Assembly (NCBI GenBank): GCA_038501625.1
Contig: JAZAYU010000062.1
Coordinates: forward strand, 3,324,460-3,388,459
Reading direction: 5' to 3'
Source of the DNA: Corbicula japonica
Taxonomy: Eukaryota; Mollusca; Bivalvia; Venerida; Cyrenidae
DNA length: 64,000 bases
The notes beneath the pieces were generated by a model. The model made no database searches, was not told the DNA's origin, and worked only from the letters and a program-made list of their open reading frames with translations. Each line of letters begins with the position of its first letter. Within the stretch, counting starts at the first letter, position 1. Below, one piece after another: positions 29,588-53,186 of this stretch. Made by a program: the position numbers and the translations under genes.

Positions 29588-32232
29588 CACAGGCCCCGTG
29601 ATTGTAAAACTTTTTTCATGCTAAACTCAATTCTGTGCTCAAACTTAAAATGTCTTGAACTTTAACAGTTTTCATAAATAAGAAATAGCTTTCTGTTTAA
29701 CAGGTGTTATTGAGAGTAATTATGTCATATTTTCAGTCTAAAATATTTAATTTTATAAAATAAAAGAATGAAGCCATCAAATTGTCGTGGTCAAATTGAG
29801 TTGTGCATGAAAAAGTTTTATAATCACGGGTCAGAGCACCCGGTGTTAATCAGCAAGAAAATGATGGCAGTAAAAAAAGAAATATTTGGGTTAATGGCTA
29901 ACACATTATTATTTCAAAGGGAGATTAAAACAAAGATAACACCCAAAAGTATACTCCCTGCTCTTACAAATATTTTTTCGTTCTGCGTTCTCTGTGATAC
30001 ACAGGATTTTTATAGTTTTAGATCTTCTGTCAAAATTCTATTATTTTCAGTAACGCTCTTGAGTCTTGAGATAAAAGAGTGTGACAAGTCAATCTATGCT
30101 CAAATATTCCAACAATTGCTACTTCGGCATCAATATTGCGTGCATGGTTGGCGGTACTTTGAAAAAAAATATAGCGTTGACTTAATGGGTGACGTCAGGA
30201 GCTGCCGAGGTCTTGGCTACATGTATGGTGTAGCAAAATACGGCTTATTTGTAAACTACCATGTTTTTTTTATTTTCCGTAACATGTATTAAACATGCAA
30301 TGATATACCTGACTTCTCAGTTTTTATCTACTCCCTAAATGTCTAAATTATAGGACTTGTTCATGAACTGAATGTTTTCCTGATATTATCTTTATGTAAA
30401 AATCACTGAATCATGTCGCGATTCAATATATAACCCATACAAACTAAACACAGGCATTAAATTACACGTACTTTGTCGCATTCATTCATTGTTAGTTTTA
30501 AACTGGAAGTAGGGAATGCATCGAATATGTTTGTAGATAAATGAAGGGGTGATTGTTCCGATATAGTCGTGCAGATCGGAATATGAGTGACGTTTTATGT
30601 TTATTTTTCTAAGGTAGTGTTTATATATCTAAGGTAGTGTTTATATCTAAGGAAGAACAATGAGCTTGGAATATTATGACTGACTGTCTGCAGAATACGA
30701 GTCATTGGGTAAAAAAAAACTAAACGAAATGTGAATGTCTGTATATGGGAATTCATATTTCTGCACTGTTCCGGCATAACGAACGGGCACAACTTGTACG
30801 CCTTTGAAGACAGGTAAGTACTTAAGTTTTTTCTTCATTTCGGTTTCCACTTATTATAATTTTTATGACTTCACGAACACATGTAAAGATAGTTTCACTG
30901 GATATATCAGGTGATTTTTTGTTGTAAAACATACATGTTAACATTTAACAATTGAAACGACTGTCTGTATTTCACTGGAGTATGGAAAACAGTAAGTCCA
31001 TTTGAAGTTACTGAAGTCAGCATTGAATTGTAGTACACTTCTCAAATTTCAAACATGATGAGATAGATCATGTTTACTTCTTTTTAAGAAGACATCAAAT
31101 TTCCTAAGTGTTTAAGTAAACCAATGACATTTTAACTAGATTGTGGAAAAACAAAAAGTCACAAAATCTACCATAGCTTTTGTTAAGAGGGTATGCCGAA
31201 ATCGGCTAAAATGCTGAAACATCTTCTGTGTAACAGCTTAGCAATCACATTATTGCAGAAACGCATAAAAGCTTTCAAAATTTCATAATAATCCATATTT
31301 AAATAAAGAGACATGCATTTTCGTTAATGGATCAAAAAACCGCTACCGACAATTTTGTGACTTTTGTATTTACCCCTACCTTGATTAAATGTCAGTAGTT
31401 CTAAATGCATGTAATTAATTTTAATGGTTATTTTACAATCAAGAGTGAAAAGGATTTATCTTATTATTATCCAAGTTTGAAGATAGGCCGATTACACACA
31501 GAGAAATTAAAATAATATGATCAGTATGCTTAGCATTGATTAAGTGTTTCTAGTCGTGTACACGCGTTGCATGTTTTCCAGTTTAAACAGTCATTATTGC
31601 TTAACATCAAGTGCATCTGTTGCGTTTTATTTATTTCAATTAATAAATGCTTGATGGGGTGTCTCATTTCTTTCTTCAAACTCTACACACAGATAGAATT
31701 TAGAAACGGAGTCAAGTGCATTTCCTTTTGAGAATGTCGAGATACTGCTTTATTTATTTATGCAAGTGTTTTAGCAAACATTCCGAATTTAAAGATTGTT
31801 TGGTTTGGATAATAATAAATACACCGGGTATGTTGTATAAAATTTTGTCGCTGTGGTCTAGAGAGCACCACGCTAACATTTATTTAAAAACGCGCACAAA
31901 ACTAGTTTTCGTAAACATATGCGTACTACGATTTTTTCTTTCAAAAGGTCGTTTTTACTTTTAAATAGCTTCATGAGTTTCTTACATATTATTTTTGTTA
32001 CATTTAAAACAATAAGGATTTGTGATTTTTTGTGATGTTACAGAACCAATACCCAAAACTGATTTTCTAACGTATGTGGTGGCCATAAGTGAAAGAAACA
32101 ACGTGAAATAACTATAATGATACATGCTTTACAGGCTATGACTATATGATACTGAGAGTGAGACCAGAAACGATAGGATTTACACATTTTACACTGATGA
32201 TTGTTTACTCATTTTCATAATGTTATATTACA
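29588..32232. other. No supported gene
   Basis: AT-rich. The 174-codon frame at 29768-30292 overlaps a segment (29930-30060, CTCTGTGATACACAGGATTT, TCTGTCAAAATTCTATTATT) that resembles intronic sequence at about 43060-43185, so it is probably a repeat, not a gene. A short tandem of CTAAGGTAGTGTTTATAT is at 30610-30650. Confidence 0.5.
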
Positions 32233-32295
32233 ATGAGAATGAACCCTGAAATGAAGACATCAAACGTTTATACATTCTTTACAGGTAATTTCATA

Positions 32296-33564
32296 ATGAT
32301 AATGAAACCAGAGGGTAGAGGAAACCTGCGCCGCTCTTCGATCTGTGTTTTCTTCATGGTGGCTATTCTGTCTTCGACCATCTTATTCTATTCGTACATC
32401 GGCCCAAGAGAAACAAACAGCATGCGACAAATTCCACAAAGCAGCGCTTATAGCCCTCGAAGAGAACAAGCCGTGATACAAACTAAACCAAAAAGTGGGA
32501 CATTAAGCCCGAAGGAAGCACATGTAAAACAATCAATTCAACCGAACAGTAACTTAAACCCGAACACAAATGAAGTCAATCAGTATTTACCACAAAATGG
32601 CGCCTTTAGCCAAATAGATAACCAGGTCAAACGTATAAGTAAACCACCAATTAACAGTGGCAAAAAGCTAAATATATATCCTAATTCTACTGCATTTACA
32701 TTCTTCAGTAATCACCCGTTTCTTATTTTAAATAAAACTATATGTGGCAATTCAAACGATATTTCCGTGATTATTCTTATTCATTCGGCACCGAAACATT
32801 TTGAATACCGTAGAGCAATAAGACGAACATGGGCAAGTTACAATACTTCTTACCATTTGTTAACTTTCCGGACAGTTTTTCTTTTCGGCAAAGTTAGTTT
32901 GCCGTCATTACAGGCTCAACTTGAAAGCGAACATAGTATCCACGGGGATATTCTGCAAGGTAATTTCATCGACAGTTATCAAAACCTCAGTTTGAATACC
33001 TTGCACGGTTTGAAATGGGTGCAGGAATATTGCCCTGGTGCAAAGGTGGTCATGAAAGTTGACGATGACGTCATTGTGGACATGTTTAATGTGATGCCAC
33101 GGATAGTTAATAAATACTTATCATCACGGCGTCATGTGTTTTGCAATGAACTGCACAAGTCGCGTATCTTTAGAAATCTAAAATCTAAATTTTTTGTGAA
33201 GGCCAATCAGTTTAATGATCTTAGATTTTTCCCTCCATACTGTGAGGGCAAAACGGTTATATTCACATCGGATTTGATCATTCCGATTCTCCAACAAGCA
33301 TCACATACACCGATGTTTTGGATAGAAGACGTCTATGTTTATGGGCTTGTTTTAAACAGAATACCAAACCTAGTAATAGACAAATACGCTTTTGATGTCA
33401 ACCTTGCTCGACACTGTAAATCAAATTGCATAGAAAATGACAAAGAATGTAGTAAAATCATGGCTGAACTAAAAAGAAACATTCCTGAACAGTTTGCAAA
33501 TATCTGGACAGTTTTTCAACAAAGGCGTGATTCTTGTCCTAATGTAACGTCATATTTGAATTAA
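32296..33564 (+). CDS. Beta-1,3-galactosyltransferase-like glycosyltransferase (GT31)
   Basis: An intact single coding exon. I chose the ATG at 32296 because a strong acceptor (ttctttacag) ends at 32284, making the in-frame ATG at 32233 likely intronic. The product is 422 residues with type II Golgi topology: a short Arg-rich cytosolic tail, a membrane segment at about residues 14-35 (CVFFMVAILSSTILFYSYI), a Ser/Pro/Asn/Gln-rich stem to about 120, and a catalytic domain. Family motifs are RRAIRRTW (about 172), FLFGK, HGDILQGNFIDSYQNLSLNT, the metal-binding KVDDDV (Asp triad about 256-258) and FWIEDVYVYG (about 342-351). Galactosyl_T proteins transfer Gal or GlcNAc from UDP-sugar in beta-1,3 linkage to glycans; the donor cannot be read from sequence. 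Length and the complete motif set argue for a working enzyme. Confidence 0.92.
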   Translation: MIMKPEGRGNLRRSSICVFFMVAILSSTILFYSYIGPRETNSMRQIPQSSAYSPRREQAVIQTKPKSGTLSPKEAHVKQSIQPNSNLNPNTNEVNQYLPQNGAFSQIDNQVKRISKPPINSGKKLNIYPNSTAFTFFSNHPFLILNKTICGNSNDISVIILIHSAPKHFEYRRAIRRTWASYNTSYHLLTFRTVFLFGKVSLPSLQAQLESEHSIHGDILQGNFIDSYQNLSLNTLHGLKWVQEYCPGAKVVMKVDDDVIVDMFNVMPRIVNKYLSSRRHVFCNELHKSRIFRNLKSKFFVKANQFNDLRFFPPYCEGKTVIFTSDLIIPILQQASHTPMFWIEDVYVYGLVLNRIPNLVIDKYAFDVNLARHCKSNCIENDKECSKIMAELKRNIPEQFANIWTVFQQRRDSCPNVTSYLN

Positions 33565-37477: not shown

Positions 37478-40400
37478 ATGGATGAAGTCAGTATGGATGC
37501 CGAAGCAGTGGAGCCAAGACCGTCCGTGCCTGACGAAGAAGTGATGGGTTCTGTACATTCCTCATCAGTCGAAGAGCAGACAACATGCAAGCGACCATTT
37601 AACTTAGAGGTTGAATCAATGGACGAGGAAACTACAAACGTTCGATCAAGCCCAGACGCAATACAAAGACAGAATACGTCATCTTACCAACCGATCCAGA
37701 CTCAGTTTAACGTAACGAATGAATCATGTGCGGTTCCTTCAGAGCCAGCAATAGCATCAAGACCGCTACAGCGAGATGAAGCTGTTGAACCAAAGCCGGT
37801 TCCTTTGGACGTGGCAGTGACGCCTTGGTCAGTTATGCCAGATGAGAACATGAAAATTTTATCGGTTCAGTCAAATAAAGAACTAGACATTCCTCGAGAT
37901 CCTCCTTTAGAGTGGCGTTTGAATGATCTCCTTCTTTACATCGCAGAAAAAATAGACGAGAACGAACTGACTAAAATAAAAACGCTTTTCCGAGGTAAGC
38001 AATATGTTTCTTATAGAAATGGTCTACCGATTTAACCCATACAATAAATTATATTTTATTGGTTTTGAAAACGACAGGTGTCCGTATCATTGTTGAAAAA
38101 TAAAATTCTAATAAAGAAAAAAAAAAATTGTGTTTTTTGATATATATATATAAATAAAGGTTCCCGTGAAGATGGGTCACATACACTGAAAGTGACCTCA
38201 AAGAACTGAAAAATTTTGTCATTTATACAAACAAAATAATATAACAATAAATGAGTCTTACATTATGCTAAAATGTCGCGAAAACCGATTGGAATTTCCT
38301 AAAACCGATTTTTTGCTAGAGCTTTTCATATCGGCTCAAACATTGACAAACGATTTAGTCGACATCGATGAGATGATCGCAAAAAACCATTTCGTTTACG
38401 GCATTACCTAGTTTGTTCGCTTCTATGAAATATTCACACGGCCCATATATAATTTACATATTTTTCAATCATTATCTACCATTAACTTGTACCTTTTCCC
38501 GATCATACGCTAAAATCTTTTTTTGTTTTTGGATGTGTCGTCTCAAATATTTACTTTGACAGCCATGGTGCTTCAGAATGGTTTCGGTCAGTTTTACGGA
38601 ATTCGCCGATATCAAATTTTGCAACGATTTCTTTGATTGGCTGGTAGTCTAAAACGCCAGCCAATCGGAAAACAAATTGCTTAATATGACATCGTCGAAT
38701 TCCGTAAACTGACCGGAACCATTCGGGAGCATCATGGCTGTCAAAGTAAATATTTTAGACGACGCATCCAAAAACAAAAAAGATGAAGAACGGTAAATTG
38801 TAAAGTTTTCTGTTAATATTATTTTTTATGTTCGATAAATCGCAGGTGAGCAAGGTATCGGCAAACGCACTTTGGAGAAATGTGACACATGTTTGAAGTT
38901 GTTTGAGGTTATGCGGAACCATACATATATATTGAGAGGCAATATAACATACCTAAATAGAATTCTCTACACTCTGAACCGACCAGATCTTATAGAAAGG
39001 GCTGTGCAGTACTGTCGAGAGGCAGGAAACGTCGTATACTATTATTCGCAAACAGAGGAATCTGGTATCGTTTCTTACTATCATTAATTGTTTAACGAGT
39101 TTTGTATATTTCAGACTCCATTCATTAATTAAGGGTCATATTCTACGTCATCGAGCGCGTGCAAAATGACTTTCTTTAGTAAAAAATGTAACTGATAATA
39201 TACAAAGTGTCAAAGCAATGTAACTATTTAGGAATTTAAGATTGAAGTTGGTCGAAATGTGTCAGCTCACCTTTTCAAATTATTCACACAGCCTAGAAGC
39301 GGTTTAATTCTATTAAATACTAGTATATAAGATATAAATGAAAGGACATATTACTCGCGCCAAATTCACATATGGAAATCCGCAACATGAATAGCATCCC
39401 TCAAACAAGAAAATGAAGCAGAAAAAATCACATATTATGAAATGCCAATATCACATATTATTTTATATAACATAAACAAAACGTTCTCGCATATCTTACA
39501 AAAAGGAAAAACGCTTAGTTTTTTTATAAGATTTCTTATTTGGATAAATATTCAGATGATACTGAAAACGCAAACTATATCGATATGATATTTGTGAAAG
39601 AATTAACATATAAAAAAGTGAAATATGCAAATTGCCACATTCAGAAGACACAGCCTCCCCACTCAGCAAAGAAGAGAAATCGAGAACATGGTTAATAAAA
39701 CGATCAGCTTCAAAACAGACCTCACAAACAATCAACAAATAACGAGATCCCAATGGGTTACCGCCTTGGAACGGTCAGTAGCAAAACAAATTGCCACTGG
39801 GGTTTTAAACCAGGTTCAAGGGTCCACCAACCTCACACATGCTCACCGGTTCTCATATCAACACACGAGTGCAAGTTGTCTTAGTGAAATTCCAACCCAC
39901 CGATCAGCTTTACAAGTTGCATGCAAAAAAAAACACACAATCATAAAAACATAAGAAGCTTACCGCATTGCCCAACGCCAGTGGGTGGGTACTCAAAGAT
40001 CTTAACAAGTTCAGAGCAACTGGAGTGAAAACAGCAAGAACACGATGGCAGGGATAAAACAAAACAAAATCGATATTCTAGGTTCTTTTACAAGATTTCC
40101 CCATAATTCGTCAAAAATCTAAAATCCCGACCAACGTCGTGCAACCAAAGAGGTAAGAGGTAAGCATAATGAGCAAATGTAGATTGGCTTATCACCAAGC
40201 CCGCAGAGCGCTGTAGAATATTGCAAAAGGTCATTTAATCATGATCTTTTTATATCTTGTTTGCTTTACGCGCGGTCATGAGGAGTCAACTAAGTATCCA
40301 CGTGTAATTTTATAAGTCTTATCTATGAAACTCAATAACATATTTTGCCACAACAAGGCCAAAGAATTTTATTTACGATCTTTTAATCTATTATTTCAAT

Positions 40401-40520
40401 TTAGAAGTTATTAAAAAATATCATATATCCTATGAATTTAAAGCATTCTGATTGGTCGAGAGCTCCGTACTCGCGAGTCCGAAAAAAGTGATAAATACCC
40501 CGGGAATTAACTACCTTTGC

Positions 40521-40558
<38 letters not shown>

Positions 40559-43500
40559 GAATGCTTTAAATTCATAGGGTATATGATATAACAAGTAAAT
40601 ACTAATGTTGAGGTCGATATGTAGTTTTGCGGACCTGGGTAGTGTGATATCGACCTCGGACTTCGTCCTCGGTCGATATCACACTACCCAGGTCCGCAAA
40701 ACTACATATCGACCTCAACATTAGTATTTATTTGTATAGTAATAAACTAGTTCTGAAAATTTGCAAATAAGATAAATTTTGAAAAATACCTTTGAAGCAG
40801 ACAATATTGGCCGATGTTGTTGTGTAAAAAAAATCAACAGGATCAGCAGGCTCCTAGTTATAAAACTGAAAATGGAAATAAAGTCTCAGATCTCAAAATT
40901 GGTTATTTCTGAGAAAATTCGGTATGTTCTGTGCCGACAACAAAAAGAGTTGGTCTTATTCGGCGAACCAGGTCTAATTCGGACTTTTTCCAAACTCGCA
41001 TCATAAGATGTTCCTAAGAATGATGATTTGGATTGAGAATAAAATCGAAATTTTTCAGAAACTGGAGACACATCCGTCACATTTCATATCGTAACCGACG
41101 TCAGAAATAGCGAAGCGATTGAGCGACTAAGGAACAATGTTGCAAAAATAGTGTGTGCACCTTTGGAACAGGTTCGAATTGCTGCGGTGGAGCCAGGCTC
41201 GAGTCTCCTCGTAACATTGAAAATGCCAGAAATGTATGCAAGTATTTTACAACGTCTGCTTAAGACGAAAGCGGATTTATGGGAACTACGTGACATGCAA
41301 GTAGACACAATCGTTATAGCAGACAAACCATATGATTTGACAGGTCGGGTTTTTTTTTGTTCTTTTATTAATATGATACATGTAATATGTTTTTATGTTT
41401 GTATTATAGCTGTCAAAAACACTATAAAATATGACACATATACGAAATACTTTTTATAATTCTTGGATTGAATTTGACTTGTAGAGACCCCAATCATAGA
41501 AATGTTAGTATATGGTGACATAGTAAGAATATACTTATTGCAATAACGAGTCTTCCTAGGAAAAATATTAAAACTATTCTTATCCGAAATACACGTTTAA
41601 AGGGAAGTTATATTTGACAATCTACACTTTTCCAGTTCAGTTCAGTGCTAGTTGTTACTTACACCACAAGCTCGAGTCCAGTGTTCCTTAACACAATTTT
41701 CGAGAAATTCAATGACTTGTTCCACTTTTATGCCGAAAGAATTTATTTTGTGTATTCGAAAAAAATATGTATATGGTACTGCAATAAACATAGGAAGCGA
41801 TTAGTTCTATACGATAGCAACTCGGTATAAAACCAGCATTAAAAAAGTGAAATTAGCACATAGCCATATCCAGAAAGCATAGCCTCTCCCATAAGCAAAA
41901 TAAGCAGGGAGGAAAACAGAACGTGATAATGTTATAATGTTATAATTAAACTAGACACAACAAGCAATAAACAAAAATAAGAACCGCTTGTGATATCATC
42001 ATGGAACGGTCAGTGCCGAAGTATGGGTTTTAAACCAGGTTCTATGATGCTCTTGTCTTACGGACATACAAGTAAATGTTTAATTGGGAAATTAGAAGAT
42101 TACAATACTTATTTGCTATGTTAATAGTACACCGAAACCCCTTTAAACCGGAACCCCTTTAATCCGGAAACCCCTTTAAACCGGACAAATCGTCTGGTCC
42201 CAAACTTCTAACTATATAAATCATCCCTTTAATCGGGAAACCCCTTTTTTCAGGAAACCGGACAAGAATTATGGCCCAAATTGGATTTGTCCATTATAAA
42301 ACACCCCTTTAAACCGGACAAGATTAAAGTCTAAATAAAATTTTTCAAGTTAGCATGGAAATGAACGGTCCATTTAAGAATGAAAAATTTGAATTTCATT
42401 TAAATATACTTGTACACTGTAAATAAAGTTCATCAATATTGTCATAGAAAGTTGTTTTGTTCAGACCTGTATGAATTTGTGTATGGCTAGGGCATGTCAT
42501 AATTGGTCATTATTGCTATGACAACAAACTGAGGTTTATTGAATGTCACAACTTTTTGTTTAAATTAGGACATGTGTGATATTTTGCATCGGGCTAGTGT
42601 ATTTGTTTCAAGGAGTTCTCCTTTAACACTCAATTAATATGAATCAGTTATGTAAAAATAACATGAATTGGTTTGTTTTTATTTTTAATTTTTAAATATC
42701 TTGGGGAGAAAGTGTACTGATCATTTTCTTGTAATGAAATAATGCATTTAACTTTTGTTGGTTAAAAGCTGAAGAGACTATTATTTATTATAACTGATCA
42801 ATGCAATTCTGTATAAAATATAGATCCAAATGTCCACATTTGGAAAAAAAGGTTGGAATCTTGTCCAGTTGTCAAAACCCCTTTAGTCCGGAAACCCCTT
42901 TAAATCGGAAATTTGGTTCAGTCCCGACCTCGTCCGGTTTAAAGGGGTTTCAGTGTACTTCTAAAATTGCTTTTGTTGAAATATCTCGGCTAGTTTATAC
43001 ATGGGTGGTTTCCATATAGTATTACCAGTTAAATTAGATTCGGATATTGTTTAATCACCCCAGGGATATACTTCCTGCTTTTTAAATTTTGCCTTTGGCA
43101 TTGTCTGTGATATGCAGGATTAGTATTCTCAGCTACCCTGTCAAAATTCTATTCTGTTTAGTTCCGCCCATTGGTTTCTCGTTTTATGCATCACGGGCCA
43201 TACGCTGCTGAACATGGAATTGTATCATTCCGACAATACTGCATTGAAGGTTCCATGTTCACCGCCATGTTCAAACCATCTTTTAGGATGGATCAAAATT
43301 GTACTGTTTATTAGTGTAAATATTGAGTTGCGCTCAACTCGGGGCTAGGCGGCGTGAGAAGTAATATGCATTTCCATTACTGCCCATGAACAGGCTCAAT
43401 CAAACCGAGCCTGCAATATTTTCATATTTGTCGTGTTCGATGGTTTTTACAGTTCATTTTTCATCTAATTAAATAGAAATGATTTTAATTAAGCACAGTC

Positions 43501-44005
43501 TTGTTTCTATTTTATTTGTTAAGGTCGAGATCAAGCTGAAATCGATGAAACTGAGCAGCAGCGCAAGTTACAGAATATTTACGATCAGTTTGCAGCAACG
43601 CGCCACATGCTGGAAGCTACAGAAGCACAAAATCTTGATATGAAAGAAAAACTTCAAGAAATGCAGAAAAAGCTTGAACGATTGACAGCACAGAATCAAG
43701 AACTGCGGCTTACACTTTCGTCTCTTAAGGAAATACATTTTACTGGTCCAGATTTTGATGCGTCCTTTTCTGATTTACTTAATGGAATCAAAAAGGCAAA
43801 GAAGCAAGGAGTTGGAAATGGGCTTTTATCTCGGATTCTTAATGCTAACAGTCGGTTGGTTTCGGCTCATCTGAGAAATAAGAACGAACATGATCTAGAA
43901 AATGAAAATAAATTATGTAAATCCAAGCAAATGAAGGAAGAACAATTGCGCCAATTGCTGATTACGGAAGAAGCAACTCCTGAACATTATTTTTTTCCTT
44001 ACTAA
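37478..44005 (+). CDS. DED / TRADD-N-like / coiled-coil adaptor protein, copy 1
   Basis: Four exons: 37478-37994, 38846-39064, 41059-41343 and 43524-44005 (stop 44003). All introns are phase 1; the coding length of 1503 nt gives 500 residues. Residues 1-140 are acidic and Pro-rich with a repeated motif (AVEPRP, AVEPKP). Residues about 141-235 are a death effector domain split by intron 1: LNDLLLYIAEKIDENELTKI, KTLFRG, LEKCDTCLKLFEVMRNH, YLNRILYTLNRPDLIERAV. Residues about 246-340 (exon 3) read as beta-alpha-beta-beta-alpha-beta: VTFHIVTD, SEAIERLRNNVAKIV, QVRIAAVEPG, SLLVTLKM, MYASILQRLLKTKADLWEL, DTIVIAD. That is a ferredoxin-like pattern compatible with TRADD-N. Exon 4 is a long coiled coil (LQEMQKKLERLTAQNQELRL). 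DEDs act in caspase and immune adaptor assembly by homotypic contact; no enzyme domain is present, so an adaptor is inferred. The last codons come from a duplication breakpoint. Confidence 0.8.
38517..38786. repeat. Foldback repeat in DED intron 1, ~120-bp arms
   Basis: TTTTTTTGTTTTTGGATG, CTCAAATATTTACTTTGACA, GCCATGGTGCTTCAGAATGG, CAGTTTTACGGAATTCG pair with the complementary series ending CATCCAAAAACAAAAAAGA. The centre holds GATTGGCTGGTAGTC and GCCAGCCAATC. It ends only ~60 bp before exon 2. Confidence 0.8.
39605..40215 (+). repeat. Dispersed repeat R1, long copy in DED intron 2
   Basis: AAGTGAAATATGCAAATTGC, CAGAAGACACAGCCTCCCCA, ACCGCCTTGGAACGGTCAGT, AAATTGCCACTGGGGTTTTA, CGCAGAGCGCTGTAGAATAT. 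It corresponds to the R1 copy at 49205 in duplicate 2, so it predates the duplication. Confidence 0.8.
40418..40589. repeat. Foldback repeat with ATC microsatellite in the loop
   Basis: ATATCATATATCCTATGAAT, TTAAAGCATTCTG at 40418-40450 pairs with CAGAATGCTTTAAATTCATA, GGGTATATGATAT at 40557-40589. The loop contains about 13 CAT/ATC triplets (40521-40558). It is absent from duplicate 2, so it was inserted after the duplication or lost there. Confidence 0.8.
40596..40730. repeat. Near-perfect 135-bp hairpin
   Basis: TAAATACTAATGTTGAGGTC, GATATGTAGTTTTGCGGACC, TGGGTAGTGTGATATCGACC with its complement. The loop is only a few bases around ACTTCGTCC. It is adjacent to the preceding hairpin and also absent from duplicate 2. 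Confidence 0.9.
41845..42060 (+). repeat. Dispersed repeat R1, short copy in DED intron 3
   Basis: GCCATATCCAGAAAGCATAG, TCATGGAACGGTCAGTG, GGGTTTTAAACCAGGTTCTA. The matching copy in duplicate 2 is at 51270-51500. Confidence 0.7.
42130..42955. mobile_element. TIR transposon with TA target duplication (Tc1/mariner/pogo-like MITE)
   Basis: Ends CACCGAAACCCCTTTAAACC and its complement GGTTTAAAGGGGTTTCAGTG, flanked by TA (42128-42129, 42956-42957). Further CCCCTTTAAACCGGA and CCCCTTTAATCGGGA motifs repeat inside both ends. It is about 826 bp, AT-rich, with no transposase. Duplicate 2 lacks it at the corresponding place. Confidence 0.85.
43350..43445 (-). repeat. Dispersed repeat R5, minus-strand copy
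   Basis: Reverse complement of the R5 blocks at 7437-7545: AATATGCATTTCCATTACTG, CAGGCTCAATCAAACCGAGC, TCATATTTGTCGTGTTCG. It lies just before exon 4 of the DED gene and is absent from duplicate 2. Confidence 0.65.
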
Positions 44006-44719
44006 CTACGTCTGTTGTTTCAATGTTTCTGTTGTATCCTGGGACGAGGTAAATTGAATGATTTTGTTAGTGCTCGACAGAAACATTACACACGCCTATC
44101 ACATATTAGTAATATAGATAACACAATATTAGTAATATACGATTATTAGTATATACGTTCGTAGATAACAATGATACAATGTAAAGCGATCTGATAAGTA
44201 ATAAAGCTATTAATAGCCTATTGTACGCCTTTTTGGGACGCACTCAGCAATCCGCCAACACGACTTGTTCTTTTGCAATAAGGTACATTGCAAGTTCGTA
44301 GATTTCTGATGAGTTGCATATTGACCAGACTTTTTCACAGCAAGTATCTTTCAATGATGACAATATGTTCTGCAAATTCTCATTTCAATTTTGTTTAGCA
44401 ATTTAGATGTATGATTAATGACCTTTGTCTCTGGTTGTTCAAGATGCAAGAAAGTCTTGCTCTTTGGTCAGCCTTAATTTATGACTAACGTTCAACAACA
44501 CATCGGAATTAATGCTTATTAACCGTGCCTTTCTAATACGTAAACGCACGTCTGAGATAACCAAAAAATCAAAAAGCTTTTATGCAAGTGTTTCATGCAC
44601 ATTAAATTTAAACTTATTTATTTTACATCGATTGTGAAAAATGTTCTTACAACATATATTAATCACGCTCGATGACTGCTTAATGGGTTAGCAACCAGTA
44701 ATCGCGCCAAATGTTGTTA

Positions 44720-45354: not shown

Positions 45355-46060
45355 TTCAGTTTTCACTTTATAAAATTAGGAACCTTGTGAATACATTTCC
45401 ATAAAATAGAATCAAATGCCTGATTAAAATCAATCGATAATAATAGCCCTTCTTTATTTTGGAGTTTAGATTCAAACTCATATATAAGACGTAAGTTCTC
45501 GCAAATAAATCTACCGACAATGAAACCTTTTTGATCATTATGAATAATTTCATTTTTTAGTCGATTTGCTATAACAGATGAAAGGAGTTTATATACTACG
45601 TTTAAGAGTGAGATTGGTCTCCAATTTTTTTTTTACAGTCCATCCTTACCTCGTATAGGTAGACATGTTATTACCGCTTGCACCTGTGTGATTGACACAT
45701 TACCGTGTCTGCATGCATTGTTTAACGATCCTAACACAAATTTTGCTAAATCTTTCCAAGAATACTTTTTAAAAATTCGGTTGTATAGCCATCTAGCCCC
45801 AGGCATTTGTAATTTTTCATATTTGATTGCGCAAAATTTAGTTCATCTATAGATATTTCACCTTCTAGCCTATTGATTTGACACTCTTTTAATGTTTTAG
45901 GGCTTACACCAATAATATTTTCTTAAGGAATATCATCAAAAATATTGGTTTTTGTGAACAGATGTTTGTAATATAGTTTTTGATATTTTAAAATTTCTTT
46001 TTTGTTGTTCATTATTATCTTAATCAACTAATTTGCTAATTGATTTATTTTAATAATTTC
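45355..46060 (-). pseudogene. LINE reverse transcriptase relic (L1-like)
   Basis: Reading the minus strand across small frame breaks gives CLGLDGYTTEFLK (near 45800), NWRPISLLNVVYKLLSSVIA (near 45620), NDQKGFIVGRFICENLRLIY (near 45510) and GLLLSIDFNQAFDS (near 45430), in the order of reverse transcriptase motifs 0-3. The catalytic YxDD region is missing, and an in-run poly-A/T tract breaks the frame. Confidence 0.75.
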
Positions 46061-46756: not shown

Positions 46757-46940
46757 GTGTTACACAATTTTGAAGTTGTTTAAGGTTTATGCGGAACCAT
46801 ACATATATATTGAGAGGCAATATAACATACCTAAATAGAATTCTCTACATTCTGAACCGACCAGATCTTATAGAAAGGGTTGTGCAGTACTGTCGAGAGG
46901 AAGGAAACGTCGTATAATACTATTTTTTATGTATATCAAA
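46757..46940 (+). pseudogene. Second copy of DED exon 2, broken
   Basis: Closely matches 38875-39050 of copy 1 (AATTTTGAAGTTGTTTAAGG, CATACATATATATTGAGAGG, CTGAACCGACCAGATCTTAT) but lacks the exon start and acceptor. An extra T after GGTT shifts the frame in the LFEVM region, and stops appear early and after GTCGTATAATAC. It cannot supply a DED half. Confidence 0.85.
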
Positions 46941-47220
46941 ATCCAATTTATTAATAAAGGGTCATATTCTACGTCATCTAGCGCGCGCAAAATGACCTTT
47001 TTAGTCAAAAATTGAACCGATAACATACAAAGTGTTAAAGCAATGTACCTATTTAGGAATTTAAGATTGGAGTTGGCCGAAATGTGTAAGTTCATCTTTC
47101 AAACTATTCACACAGCCTAGAAGCGGTTTAAATCTATTAAGTACTAGTTTATAACATGTAAGTGTAAGGACATATGACTCGCGCCAAACTTAAATATGGA
47201 AATCCGCAACATGAATAACA

Positions 47221-48463
47221 TGTCAAACATTATCTTTTGATGCAATGGCTAGGTCAGTGTTGCAGAAGGCAAATGCACGTTTAAAATTTTTAAATCGCAA
47301 AAAGGATTACCTTACTCAACATACAAAGAAGCTTCTAGTTATGTCCTTAATTCAATGTCATTTTGATTACTGTTGTTCAATATGGTATCCTAGTCTAACA
47401 CAGGTTCTTAAAAACAAACTTCAAGTCACTCAAAATAAGCTGATTAGGTTTGTCCTTGATCTTGATGCCAGGTCACATATTGGTCCAAATCACTTCCGTA
47501 CACTCAACTGGTTACCAGTCAATAAACGTGTAGATCAGATCATCCTTTGTCATGTTTTTAAAATTAAAAATGGTCTGGCTCCCGATTACATGGAAGAATA
47601 TTTCATTCCACAAGACACTGTTCATTCCTACAAAACCAGGTTAAGTAACAAGGGTGGATTTGCAGTCCCAAGGGTCAAAGGTTTTGGCTCAAAATCTTTC
47701 AGCTTTGTGGGTTGTTCCTTGTGGAATAGTTTGCCAGCGGATTTATCTAACATTAGCAGGTTGCCTTCTTTCAAAAAATCTGTTAAGAAGTACCTAATGG
47801 ACAGTTTGTAATTTTATTTTTTTTAAATCTTCAAAAGTGTTTTTCAAATTTACATTTGATTACTTCGGTATAGGAATGGATTTAACTTATTTTGTTTTTC
47901 ATCTTATCATTTAACATTTTTAGTTTATAATGATCTTTTTGTTCTTTTTATCTATTAATAATGTGCTACACATTTTAAATATACTTATCACTACATTTTA
48001 AAGTCGAGACTTGTTATCTTGGCAGTAGTTTTAGTAATAGGTTTAACTTTGTGACTGTGATATAATATAATTTGTCTTTATTGAAATTTAACTGAATGTA
48101 AAATATTTAAGGTTTATTAATTTTATCATTTGCTTCTTAGTATATTTATTCCACTGCTATTTGAATAATGGGTAACAATACTTTAAATTGTAATCTGTGA
48201 TAAAAAATTGAATTCTTACTGTGATATATTTAATTGAAAGTAGGTTTTGCATAAATTAAAGGCTCTCAATGTCATGCCACCAACACAGAGGACAACAATG
48301 GAAATAAGAGTCTCTCTTTTCTGTGTTATCCTCGGTGTTGGTGTTCATGTCATTGCTAATTTATACACATGTGTGTTATATATATTTGTACCGTACATGT
48401 TGTTTTAAATGACCATGTATATGTATTCCATACCGAAATAAATAAATAAATCAATCAATCAAT
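47221..48463 (+). mobile_element. 5'-truncated CR1/L2-type LINE
   Basis: An open frame at 47245-47811 encodes 188 residues typical of the region after a CR1/L2-type reverse transcriptase: NARLKFLNRKKDYLTQHTKK, LIQCHFDYCCSIWYPSL, LQVTQNKLIRFVLDL, LNWLPVNKRVDQI, FKIKNGLAPDYM, CSLWNSLPADLS. The 3' end has AAATAAATAAATAAATCAATCA repeats, a microsatellite tail. The empty site is visible in copy 1 at about 39390 (ATGAATAGCATCCCTCAAAC). Confidence 0.85.
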
Positions 48464-48512
48464 TTCTCAAGCAAGAAAATGAAGCAGAAAAAATCACATA
48501 TCTTATAATATA

Positions 48513-49027
48513 CTCAACAAAAATAAAAAGTATCCACTTTCCTATCTCCAATTTTGTAAAATTTGAAAATGATGACTCAAAATTCTTTATGTGACAAATT
48601 GTGCATTTCTGTTATCATTGCATAGAGATAAAGTTTTCTTGAAAATCCGCAGCCACAACTTAGTTATCTTTCCCTGTGTTATAATGAGGATTTCAGGAAA
48701 AAAATCAGTAGTTCTTAAAAGTATTTACATTATTTTTTTAATTGAATAAATTCCTTCATCTCTTGTGATCAATAAAATCACAAAACATTTATCAATAAAA
48801 CAACTAGTCTTCAACAAACAACGCTAGAAATGCCAACCATTTCCAATTACCTCCCTTTTAATTGAATATGTAGTGTTTTACAAAAATTCATTATTAATTG
48901 TTATTCGGCTGGCAGTTGCTAAGTTCTTGGTGTGGAAAATTAACACCATACAATGCGTTCGTGATTAAATGAAAATGTGTTAATGAGAATATAAGCTTAA
49001 AAAGTGGATACTTTTTATTTTGTTCAG
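48513..49027. mobile_element. Tc1/mariner-like MITE
   Basis: Terminal repeats CTCAACAAAAATAAAAAGTA, TCCACTTT and, inverted, CTGAACAAAATAAAAAGTAT, CCACTTTTT, flanked by TA (48511-48512, 49028-49029). It is 515 bp with no coding. The uninterrupted site is in copy 1 near 39432 (CACATATTATGAAATGCC). Confidence 0.85.
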
Positions 49028-49204
49028 TATATGTGAAACGCCAATACCAACAATTTGTCACGATCATAAACAAAACGTTCTCGAATATCTTACAAAAAGT
49101 AAAACTGTGTAGTTTATTATAAGATTTCTAATTTGGAAAAAAAATATTCAGATGATATCGCAAACGCAAACTATATTGATATGATATTTGTAAAAGATTT
49201 AACA

Positions 49205-49600
49205 TATAAAAAGTGAAATATGCATATCAGGAATTGCCTTATTCAGAAGACACAGCCTCTCCACACAGCCAAGAACAAGAGAAAAGGAGAGAAAGCAAGG
49301 TTAATAAAATGATCAGCTTCTAACAGACACCACAAACAATTAACAAAAATGAGAACATGATGGGTTACCGCCTTGTAACGGTCAGTGGCAAACAAATTGC
49401 CACTGGGGGTGGGGGGATGCAACAACCTCACACTTGCCTTATCAGGTTCTCATATCAACAAATACGAGCTTCTTGTTGTTGTTTTTTCTTACAAATTTCC
49501 CTATAAACATAAACTCTTTAATCTCTGTCACCGTCGTGCAACCAAAATGGTCAGCATAATGATCAACTGTAGATGGGTTGATCATGTTGGTAACCTTTCT
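49205..49600 (+). repeat. Dispersed repeat R1 (duplicate of the 39605 copy)
   Basis: GTGAAATATGCATATCAGGA, CAGAAGACACAGCCTCTCCA, GGTTACCGCCTTGTAACGGT, AAATTGCCACTGGGGG, GTCGTGCAACCAAAATGG. Confidence 0.75.
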
Positions 49601-50145
49601 TTTTAAATTTACAGAAGTTTATTAATTAAGTCTCCATAATAAATTGGCTGTGAAATACCTTGTTGCAATAGTGATTTTAAACTGCGCCTGTATATTTGAA
49701 TTAAATCTGGGTATCGGCGATAAATCTTGCAAAAGGTTATTTCGCATAATCTCTTTTTATTTGTAATGTTTGCTTTACGCCAGGAGGTGATGAGAAGGAG
49801 TCAACAAAGTATCCACTTGAAAGTTCGACAAATCTTATCTATAAAACTCGAAAAAATTGCTTTAAAAAAGAAACAAAATTTAAACTACGATCTGTTATGC
49901 TATAATTTGAATTTAAAAAATCACAAAAAAAATCAAATACACAATATTTTTAAATATCTGCAAATACAAAGAATTCTATAACTACCTTAAAAGCAGAAAA
50001 TATTTGCCGATGATTTTGTGTAAAAAAAATCAGCAGGCTCCATGATTATCAAGCTTAAAATGGAATAATTATCAGACCTTAAAACTCTTATTGGTCATTT
50101 CTTAAAAAAAAAACTATATGTTCCGCGCCTACAACAAAAATATGC

Positions 50146-50390
50146 TAATTTACAAAAGTCTTGTCCGATTGGAAAATTGAAACATTTTGCATGCCAATTT
50201 TCAACACATTACTTTTCTAGCAGTACTGGCTAAAATTCCAAAATTCTTTTTTCATTGAATGCATATAAATGTCTTCTTTCTATCCATAAAAAAATTATGC
50301 CGATAGTATTGTGTTGAAAATTGGCATTGTTGGTGTTTACGCAGCTATTATAAAAACACATACCGGACAAGACTTTTGTCCGTAAGTATA
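50146..50390. mobile_element. Insertion private to copy 2, probable MITE
   Basis: Starts ATGCTAATTTACAAAAGTCT, TGTCCG and ends CCGGACAAGACTTTTGTCCG. Copy 1 runs straight through at about 40945 (ACAACAAAAAGAGTTGGTC). The terminal motif also occurs at 13090-13165. Confidence 0.6.
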
Positions 50391-50500
50391 GTTTGTCTTA
50401 ATAGGCGAACCAGGTCTAATTCGGACTTCCTGCAAATTCGCATTATCAGCTGTCACTAGGAATGATGATTTAGATTGAGTATAAAATTGAAATATTTCAG

Positions 50501-50785
50501 AAACTGGAGACACATCCGTCACATTTCATATCGTAACCGACGTCAGAAATAGCGAAGCGATTGAGCGACTAAGGAACAATGTTGCAAAAATAGTGTGTGC
50601 ACCTTTGGAACAGGTTCGAATCGCTGCGGTAGAGCCAGGCTCGAATCTGCTCGTAACATTGAAAATGCCAGAAATGTATGCAAGTATTTTACAGCGTCTG
50701 CTTAAGACGAAAGCGGATTTATGGGAACTACGTGAGATGCAAGTAGACACCGTTGTTCTAGCAGACAAACCATATGATTTGACAG
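50501..50785 (+). CDS. Second copy of the TRADD-N-like exon (exon 3'), intact
   Basis: 285 nt, phase 1-1, acceptor tttcag and donor AG/gtcggg preserved. It encodes the same beta-alpha-beta-beta-alpha-beta domain as 41059-41343, with about four conservative changes in 95 residues (PGSS to PGSN, RDM to REM, TIVIAD to TVVLAD). The neighbouring copies of exons 2 and 4 are broken, while this exon stays open. It could be spliced into the copy 1 transcript without a frame change, or simply be a young relic. Confidence 0.65.
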
Positions 50786-51269
50786 GTCGGGGTTTTTTTA
50801 TTAATATGATACATGTAATATGTTTGTATGTTTGTATTATAGCTGTCAAAAATATTATAAAATATGACACCTACAAGAAATTGATTTTATAATTCTTGGA
50901 TTGAATTTGAATTGAGGAGACCTCAATCATAGAAATGTTAGTATATTGTGACATAGTACGAATATACTTATTGCAATAACGAGTCTACCTAGGAAAAATA
51001 TTATTATTCTTATCCGAAATACACGTTTTAAGCGAAGTTATTCGACAAACTTCACTTTTCCAGTTCAGTTCAGTGCTAGTTGTTTCTACCACAAGCTCGG
51101 GTCCTGTTTGCCTTGACAAACTTTCCGAGAAAATCAATGACTTGTTCCACTGTTATGCCAAAGAATTTACTTTGTGTATACGAGCAAAAATACGTAGTTG
51201 GTACTGGAATAAACAAAGGTAACGATTAACTCTATATGATAGTAACTCGGTATTAAAACAAGCATAAAG

Positions 51270-51500
51270 AAATGTGAAATTGGCATATTAGGAATAGCCA
51301 TATTCAGAAAGCATAGCCTCCCCCCATAAGCAAAAAAGCAGGGAGGAAAACATAACGTGATTATTGTGTTATAATTAAAATAGACACAACAAACAATTAA
51401 CAAATGAAGAGAACATGTGGAGGAACGGTCATTACCGAAGCATTATGAAACTATGGGTTTTAAATCAGGTTCTATGATGCACTAGTCTAACAAACAAACA
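51270..51500 (+). repeat. Dispersed repeat R1 (duplicate of the 41845 copy)
   Basis: GTGAAATTGGCATATTAGGA, GCCATATTCAGAAAGCATAG, GGGTTTTAAATCAGGTTCTA. Confidence 0.7.
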
Positions 51501-51586
51501 CAGACATGTTACATTATGGGAAATTAGAACATTAAATAGAAATAATTTTAACAAAACACAGTCTTGTTTCTATTTTATTTCTATAG

Positions 51587-51897
51587 GTCGCGATCAAGCT
51601 GAAATTGATGGAACTGAGCAGCAGCGCAAGTTACAGAATATTTACGATCAGTTTGCAGCGATGCGTCGCATGCTAGAAGCTACAGAAGCACAAAATCTTG
51701 ACATGAAAGTAAAACTTCAAGAGATACAGCAAAACCTTAAACGGTTGACAGCACAGAATCAAGAACTGCGACTTACAATATCGTCTCTTAAGGAAATAAA
51801 TTATACTGGTCCGGATAGTGATACCTTCTTAAACGATTTACTGAATGGAATTAAAGAGGAAAGAAGCAAGGACTTGGAAATGGACTTAAGAACGTAA
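51587..51897 (+). pseudogene. Second copy of the coiled-coil exon (exon 4'), truncated
   Basis: Starts in phase after ctatag with GRDQAEIDGTEQQRKLQN and follows the coiled coil of copy 1 (AQNQELRLTISSLKEI). After KEERSKDLEMDLRT it reaches a stop at 51895 because a deletion removes the segment equivalent to 43828-43880 of copy 1. The homologous tail (AAATCCAAGCAAATGAAAGA, GAAGAAGCAACCCCTGAACA) continues out of frame to about 52000, where a gtaagt donor lies (52033-52038). Confidence 0.75.
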
Positions 51898-52331
51898 TTT
51901 AATATGTAGAAAATGAAAAGAAATTATGGAAATCCAAGCAAATGAAAGAAAAACAATTGCGCAACTTGCTGATTACGGAAGAAGCAACCCCTGAACAGGT
52001 TCTTCTACTTAAGTATTCCCAGTGCACTTTGTGTAAGTATCCAGAATATTTCATAACCGAAGCAAACACAAAACCACACATCAAATTAATACTTTTCATG
52101 ATTTTAAATAAGTATGATTAAAATCAAATGCGAGTGCTGCAGTCAGCCAAGACCATTAAACTCCACGTCAACGACGGTAAACAGCCGTCATGAACTTTTT
52201 CCCATATAAATTTCTGCTAATCGACATTGAACACCACACTCGCATTCAATAATTGTTCCCCAATTTTTTGTCGATTTCAAGGGGATGCGCTCCGACTCTA
52301 AACCCATCAGTCTTTACGTCTTTTTCAACAG

Positions 52332-53186
52332 AGGTAAAACGCGGAAACACTGTGTTGATTGCTATAAGAGGTGAGGTTCAAATTGTTCAAGACAAATACA
52401 TCAATGAAAAGAGTATATTTTGGGGCATGTTAAAGCTTTTCGTTGACTTGTGTTGGCCATCAAATGCTCCCTTTAGTTTCGATTGTTTTTCAGCGCAAGA
52501 TTTAGGTTTAGACCTAAGACTGTGTCGGTGTATTAATGACGTGAGCGAAAGAATTACCGAGAGTGAAAAGAGTAAGTTAATGGAGAGATATGACTGGACT
52601 AAACAAGATGTAATAAAACGTTGCATAGATGCTGACAGAAAACTGCTGCTATTGGGACTGGAGTGCAAAGAGACAGAAAGACAACAAACAACCGTTATGA
52701 CAGGTAGAAACAATAGTGTACCCATTCTATAGTTATTTTTCTTGCAAGGTATATAGATTTTGAAGGTGAAATTTTTCCAATACACCTGAGTAACAATAAA
52801 ATCTTTCATGTTTTGTCCATGCTTGTATCTCAATTTTCATGCAAAGGAATTCGTTTGAAGAATAAGCTTAATTATATATGATAATAGGAACACTGTTTTC
52901 ATTGACTTTTGCAGGCGCATTCTTTGAAGAAATTTTGTGTGACATAGATCGCCATGATCTATTGGCCAAGTTTTACGAAACAATAAATAGGATTGAGCGT
53001 GACGCTAGAACAGCAGAAAAACAAACAAAATATTTAAGTAGGTCATTGGAAATAACACAACGGAATAGAATCGACGACCACTACTCTGGTCAAACTACTG
53101 GCCCTGAAAATGAACTGCAGCAAAAATTTACTGTTCTGTATTTGACGATGCCTGGTGAAAATAAGAAGCTTGTATCTTCCCGTTAG
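52332..53186 (+). CDS. Two downstream exons, probable 3' exons of the original DED gene
   Basis: Exon 5 is about 52332-52703 (acceptor ttttcaacag; an alternative is gatttcaag before 52282), donor ACAG/gtagaa. Exon 6 is 52915-53186 (acceptor ttttgcag, stop TAG). The junction is phase 1, as in all introns of copy 1: VMTG joins AFFEEILCDIDRHD. Exon 5 encodes NTVLIAIRGEVQIVQ, FSAQDLGLDLRLCRCINDVS and a helical KSKLMERYDWTKQDVIKRC stretch. Exon 6 is mostly helical and charged (LLAKFYETINRIERDART), ending in LVSSR. I do not recognise a named domain. They lie only after copy 2, and copy 1 has no equivalent, which suggests they belonged to the pre-duplication gene. The link from exon 4' to exon 5 is not resolved; a separate gene is possible. 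Confidence 0.55.

Follow-up and report, generated by a model that had tools for sequence, protein, structure and literature searches.

The window analysed here, 64,000 nucleotides of the forward strand of contig JAZAYU010000062.1 (positions 3,324,460-3,388,459; assembly GCA_038501625.1) from the bivalve Corbicula japonica, carries at window positions 37478..44005 a gene that joins a death effector domain (DED) to a TRADD-N-like domain and a coiled-coil-like part. We consider it likely that this gene belongs to an animal family of DED–TRADD-N–coiled-coil adaptors acting as scaffolds, and that its first copy was shortened by an internal duplication. An earlier note on this DNA had proposed an undescribed architecture, a proposal overtaken by the literature: in 2021 Kaur et al. 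(eLife e70394, PMC8195603) reported NCOA6-clade proteins with a DED–TRADD-N dyad and variable C-termini from bivalves, cnidarians, amphioxus and sponges.

Exon structure of the gene

The gene model comprises four exons.

Exon 1, 37478..37994, + strand: a low-complexity N-terminus of about 140 residues, followed by the start of the DED; donor GT preceded by G, phase 1.
Exon 2, 38846..39064, + strand: remainder of the DED, with an RPDL (RxDL) motif.
Exon 3, 41059..41343, + strand: TRADD-N-like, ferredoxin-like domain, assigned from Pfam, predicted fold and hhalign.
Exon 4, first copy, 43524..44005, + strand: coiled-coil-like, having lost its 3' end and the usual donor; weak AAG acceptor.

Joined in silico through GT..AG introns, in phase 1 throughout, these exons give an open frame of 500 residues that closes with a stop codon at 44003-44005, and an AATAAA poly(A) signal lies at 44200. 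The same joins are supported by P0001, a 594-residue open frame on a contig of 2018 bases, which matches residues 131-492 of the 500-residue protein in a single frame (41% over 375 columns). As this frame fills so short a contig without introns, P0001 suggests a transcript. Its identity to the DED plus TRADD-N region was 53% (the 1 match among 666 candidates), and a profile built from a four-sequence full-length alignment recovered only P0001 among 7995 scored candidates; the exon-3 alignment profile gave three short proteins among 833 candidates. Hand-picked splice sites were compared between the window and eight relatives: all 36 donors and 31 of the 36 acceptors fell on the homologous phase-1 base, and at each of the remaining five acceptors an AG in phase stands 3 or 6 bases upstream of the chosen site. 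Given phase-1 borders kept across loci and a P0001 match in one frame, chance joining of the exons was rejected.

The earlier note had read one exon as one domain, which is exact for exon 3 only, the DED being split over exons 1 and 2. Its 500-residue open frame is real, and what it missed are two downstream exons (5 and 6) and the internal duplication, both described below. Because fuller relatives extend to exons 5-6 and exon 4 of the window is truncated, 44005 is probably not the ancestral end of the gene.

The first DED

Pfam placed a DED (PF01335) at residues 149-230 of the 500-residue protein with an E value of 4.8e-13 and 49.6 bits, well above the curated cut-off of 35.9 bits, in agreement with the DED call of the earlier note. 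The RxDL motif described for DEDs in PMC4558505 reads RPDL in the window and is found in four of the five aligned rows of this first DED (DED1), the row of relative C128 having NRDL. Against Protein Data Bank (PDB) sequences the DED1 family profile matched caspase-8 at 1e-10 and FADD at 7e-10, with FADD, caspase-8 and cFLIP together ranging from 1e-10 to 3e-5. Judged by these profiles, the first DED is of the FADD/caspase-8 type. Nine Pfam families matched the 500-residue protein at E≤1; none was a protease or nuclease domain, as the earlier note had held, and no death domain, caspase or pseudo-caspase domain was found by Pfam in this protein. The content fits an adaptor without an enzyme domain.

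Exon 3 encodes a TRADD-N-like domain

AlphaFold modelled the exon 3 product as beta-alpha-beta-beta-alpha-(short alpha)-beta-beta with a predicted local distance difference test score (pLDDT) of 90.5 and a predicted template modelling score (pTM) of 0.81. The beta-alpha-beta-beta-alpha-beta pattern read earlier from the sequence thus survived the refutation test named beforehand. The model has the two-layer alpha+beta (RRM-like) fold with a four-stranded sheet that is a trait of the TRADD-N superfamily. When the model was used in fold searches, human TRADD-N (1f3v_A) had the top query TM-score, 0.60, among the 50 matches listed; it ranked 48th by E value and 36th by Z, and no Foldseek match reached E≤0.001. 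Assignment to TRADD-N from the fold alone was discarded as not specific, as many unrelated ferredoxin-like folds match equally well or better.

The assignment was made by sequence profile. Scanned alone, window exon 3 matched PF20694 (TRADD-like_N; E 4.4e-4, 20.5 bits vs a cut-off of 23.7) and PF13820 (NCOA6_TRADD-N; E 0.027, 14.7 bits vs a cut-off of 22.5). Both scores are below the curated cut-offs, and these two TRADD-N models were its sole Pfam matches at E≤10. Among 12 exon-3 sequences, PF13820 matched seven and PF20694 five at E≤1. Five of the sequences were scanned singly, and exon 3 of C3 exceeded the PF13820 cut-off (1.8e-5, 25.0 vs 22.5 bits), the other four staying below. As the window exon falls under the cut-offs and a paralogue above, we claim TRADD-N homology by family profile and not formal Pfam membership. 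Using hhalign, the exon-3 family profile aligned with the TRADD-N domain of the genome's own NCOA6 gene (identified by PF13820, 3e-25) with an E value of 5.2e-5, a probability of 67% and 33% identity over 55 columns, which is about half the domain, the half with the serine turn. The exon-3 profile had no match up to E 10 among PDB sequences. At the level of profiles, exon 3 is thus a relative of TRADD-N domains of the NCOA6 type. The guess that exon 3 is TRADD-N-like is backed by these sequence profiles and is consistent with the predicted fold.

The beta2-beta3 turn of TRADD-N is described as a tiny residue plus serine (PMC8195603), and in window exon 3 this turn reads GSS. Serine occupies the corresponding column (49) in 11 of 12 exon-3 rows, the exception being an asparagine in the second exon 3 copy of the window, and the preceding residue is S or C in nine of the 12. 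By motif, the turn serine may correspond to TRADD Ser67.

Exon 4 and the downstream exons

In the P0001 model, the part that matches exon 4 is a single long helix spanning residues 243-316, with a mean pLDDT of 78-83 over residues 251-300. This helix is the basis on which exon 4 looks like a coiled coil. The full-length P0001 model is of low confidence (mean pLDDT 46.7), too low to judge a second DED by. After the coiled coil, at about 43826-43879, exon 4 has a NAN[ST] stretch, which is present in the window, both C1100 copies, C1 and C128 and absent from P0001, C3 and C81.

Fuller relatives have two further phase-1 exons after exon 4, and the window has their counterparts.

Exon 5, 52494..52703, + strand: first part of a weak second DED-like domain; phase 1 at both ends.
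Exon 6, 52915..53186, + strand: completes the second DED-like domain, with an RHDL motif, and adds a tail; stop at 53184-53186.

An RxDL motif is found in all six aligned rows of the exon 5-6 product. Two of four exon 5-6 peptides matched the Pfam DED (E 0.015 and 0.19), the window's own peptide not being among them, and the best score (16.0 bits, C128) did not reach the cut-off of 35.9 bits. Comparison with DED1 by hhalign gave an E value of 0.016 and a probability of 2.8%, and the best PDB rows were cFLIP at E ~0.1 over 22 columns only. The product is thus weakly DED-like in sequence.

A gene family in the genome

A DED search of the 1.07 Gb genome gave 20 matching places. One is in the window, and the 19 others were covered by 17 stretches of 10 kb. 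The exon 2/exon 3 pair is kept in nine of these 17, a tenth (L011) having a weak exon-3 match only (E 0.01). A DED exon adjoins a TRADD-N exon at nine places besides the window, and P0001 has DED and TRADD-N in one open frame. The family size is a lower bound, drawn from the DED search alone. When tblastn was run over ten non-window stretches, some with added flanking DNA, all six exons were found in four (C1100 twice, C3 and C81). C1 and C128 each gave exons 1-5, and C128 becomes a fifth six-exon locus with an exon 6 located by its motif. C58 has exons 1-4, and C1294 and C32 have exons 2-3. Some relatives may be damaged too: C128 has its exon 4 spread over two frames, and C58 has an exon 4 with a partial match and no exons 5-6 seen in 26 kb. 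Alignable DNA is 85% identical between C1100 and C1 and 80% between C128 and C1294, values at which these pairs look like paralogues and not alleles, with the proviso that small contigs could be haplotype copies.

Searched against the whole genome, PF13820 gave one match, the NCOA6 gene, and PF20694 two places, neither at a locus of the DED–TRADD-N family. Both profiles therefore miss the family at genome scale. The NCOA6 gene lies at L027 / G000:C92; a separate exon matching TRADD-like_N (E 8.4e-11) lies at L026 / G000:C144, which is not a locus of the family.

We compared the window with the C58 paralogue at nonsynonymous (dN) and synonymous (dS) sites. Exon 2 gave dN 0.17 and dS 0.81 (dN/dS ~0.2) and exon 3 dN 0.14 and dS 0.98 (dN/dS ~0.14), and in exon 4 synonymous sites were saturated with dN 0.39. 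Between L009 and L012, exons 2-4 were constrained and exon 5 not clearly so (dN 0.061, dS 0.067).

An internal duplication of exons 2-4

The segment 38881-43986 matches 46758-51997 in blocks of 107-1185 columns at 72-86% identity, plus shorter blocks. The second copy contains the following.

Exon 2 remnant, 46758..46923, + strand: dead, with the 5' part missing and an in-frame stop.
Exon 3, second copy (TRADD-N), 50501..50785, + strand: open, splice sites present; conserved turn serine changed to asparagine.
Exon 4, second copy, 51587..52032, + strand: frameshifted, stop at 51895-51897; family-like exon end and donor GTAAGT preceded by T kept.

The copy-to-copy match stops at 43986, inside first-copy exon 4 and just before VLLLKYSQCTL and the donor GTAAGT, both of which are kept in the second copy and have a similar form in the C128 relative. 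As the match ends within the exon, the last residues of the first copy (HYFFPY) and the stop derive from non-matching DNA. Exon 4 of the second copy carries a frameshift plus a deletion. Exons 1-4 of the first copy are open over 500 codons, where the noncoding rate predicts about 12 frameshifting indels in a single lineage. For exons 5-6 a simple estimate puts the neutral chance of staying open since the duplication at ~0.02 for frameshifts and ~0.12 for stops. The two exon 3 copies differ at 10 of 282 nucleotides (dN 0.019, dS 0.096) vs a noncoding divergence of 17.9%, which suggests constraint or gene conversion.

Several other elements were noted by eye. A long near-perfect palindrome resembling a foldback element lies in intron 3 at 40600-40730, between blocks common to the second copy. 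About 830 bases of first-copy intron 3 (42128-42960), outside the common blocks, have inverted ends (repeated cccctttaaaccgg) and look like a small transposon. Frames resembling reverse-transcriptase fragments are found between the copies (45363-45632, - strand) and inside the second copy (47215-47811, + strand), the latter matching no Pfam family at E≤0.1. Upstream of the gene, a single-exon frame at 32221-33561 (+ strand) is galactosyltransferase-like by Pfam (PF01762, E 2.3e-36).

Proposed role and alternative explanations

The ancestral protein was probably arranged as DED, NCOA6-type TRADD-N, coiled coil and weak second DED. Such a protein would be a scaffold, its first DED nucleating or joining filaments with FADD/caspase-8-type DEDs, and the exposed sheet and serine turn of its TRADD-N binding a second partner, TRAF-like or other. 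In vertebrate TRADD, TRADD-N partners with the TRAF2 MATH domain. Multimerisation of the chain would fall to the coiled coil, together with the second DED in a long form, and one polypeptide would thereby connect the death and inflammatory arms of an immune response. An immune or apoptotic role is suggested by analogy with what the domains are known to do. In this copy the internal tandem duplication of exons 2-4 truncated the coiled-coil exon, which makes a short form with its end at 44005 likely; downstream, exons 5-6 and the second TRADD-N exon are still open and may be reached through alternative splicing. Two observations call for caution in reading constraint from the similar exon 3 copies: the dead exon 2 piece itself shows 94.8% identity over 135 columns, and the serine is lost in the second exon 3. 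A more elaborate version has the gene as a splice-switched adaptor, in which an exon 3 pair with and without the turn serine and a terminal exon 4 yield short (to 44005) and long (exons 5-6) forms that serve as decoy and activator, like short and long cFLIP, one chain bridging the TRAF and caspase-8 arms. We regard this as quite improbable, slightly more so because the second exon 3 lacks the conserved serine.

A rival explanation is a decaying pseudogene, a locus broken by the duplication with neither copy yielding a working protein. The first copy lost the end of exon 4 and its donor, and the second lost exon 2, has a frameshifted exon 4 and lacks the conserved serine in exon 3. However, decay is an unlikely explanation of a first copy open over 500 codons in the face of the dozen or so frameshifting indels expected, of open exons 5-6 and second exon 3, and of the low dN/dS in exons 2 and 3. 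Another explanation concerns function: the protein could be a nuclear regulator of the NCOA6 or DEDD2 sort, with TRADD-N binding transcription or chromatin partners and not TRAFs, and the DED serving dimerisation or nuclear caspase control. The best-scoring relatives and the NCOA6 comparison do point to an NCOA6-type TRADD-N, and DEDD2, which has a DED plus TRADD-N, is nucleolar according to Kaur et al. (PMC8195603). We nevertheless think a nuclear role improbable: no other NCOA6 part or known nuclear domain was present at Pfam cut-off (no search for nuclear signals was made), and the several family loci, vs a single NCOA6 gene detected by PF13820, resemble the reported immune expansions. It is highly unlikely that exon 3 is another ferredoxin-like domain with a convergent likeness to TRADD-N. 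The many unrelated folds that match its model as well or better and its scores under both family cut-offs would allow this, but two TRADD-N models were its only Pfam matches at E≤10, a paralogue scores above the cut-off, and over the serine-turn half the family profile aligns with NCOA6 TRADD-N (E 5e-5). We favour the scaffold adaptor with a shortened first copy as the likely account.

Invertebrate DED–TRADD-N adaptors have been little studied, and the locus contributes a well-resolved family to them, one in which the exon structure is known and fuller copies can be set beside damaged ones. The family points to a route of diversification in which symmetric phase-1 exons are skipped or duplicated with the frame intact, and if both long and short forms exist they would allow a direct test of adaptor tuning.

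Comparison with known systems

The first DED resembles those of FADD, caspase-8 and cFLIP, as seen in the profile matches of 1e-10 to 3e-5, whereas by Pfam the present protein lacks the death domain or the caspase or pseudo-caspase domain of those proteins. TRADD likewise is an enzyme-free adaptor that combines TRADD-N with a death-fold domain, but in TRADD this is a C-terminal death domain and here an N-terminal DED; the classic TRADD clade is vertebrate-only according to Kaur et al. (PMC8195603). DEDD2 (FLAME-3) has a DED followed by TRADD-N in a single chain, and differs in that exon 3 here matches the NCOA6-type and general TRADD-N models, DEDD2 itself not having been directly compared.

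The closest likeness is to the dyads of Kaur et al., which as described in that paper's text have an N-terminal DED directly before an NCOA6-type TRADD-N, several copies per genome and a variable C-terminus, the latter including further death-fold domains in some oyster proteins; 17-20 bivalve architecture themes are given (PMC8195603). In the literature searched we found no report of a coiled-coil plus second-DED theme, though it may be among the themes of Kaur et al. The present family differs from those dyads in that extracellular, enzyme, NTPase, ankyrin and propeller parts were not found; their place is taken by a coiled-coil-like part and, in its fuller members, a weak second DED. At most, this C-terminus with its coiled coil and DED-like domain would be a novel theme within the known DED–TRADD-N kind.

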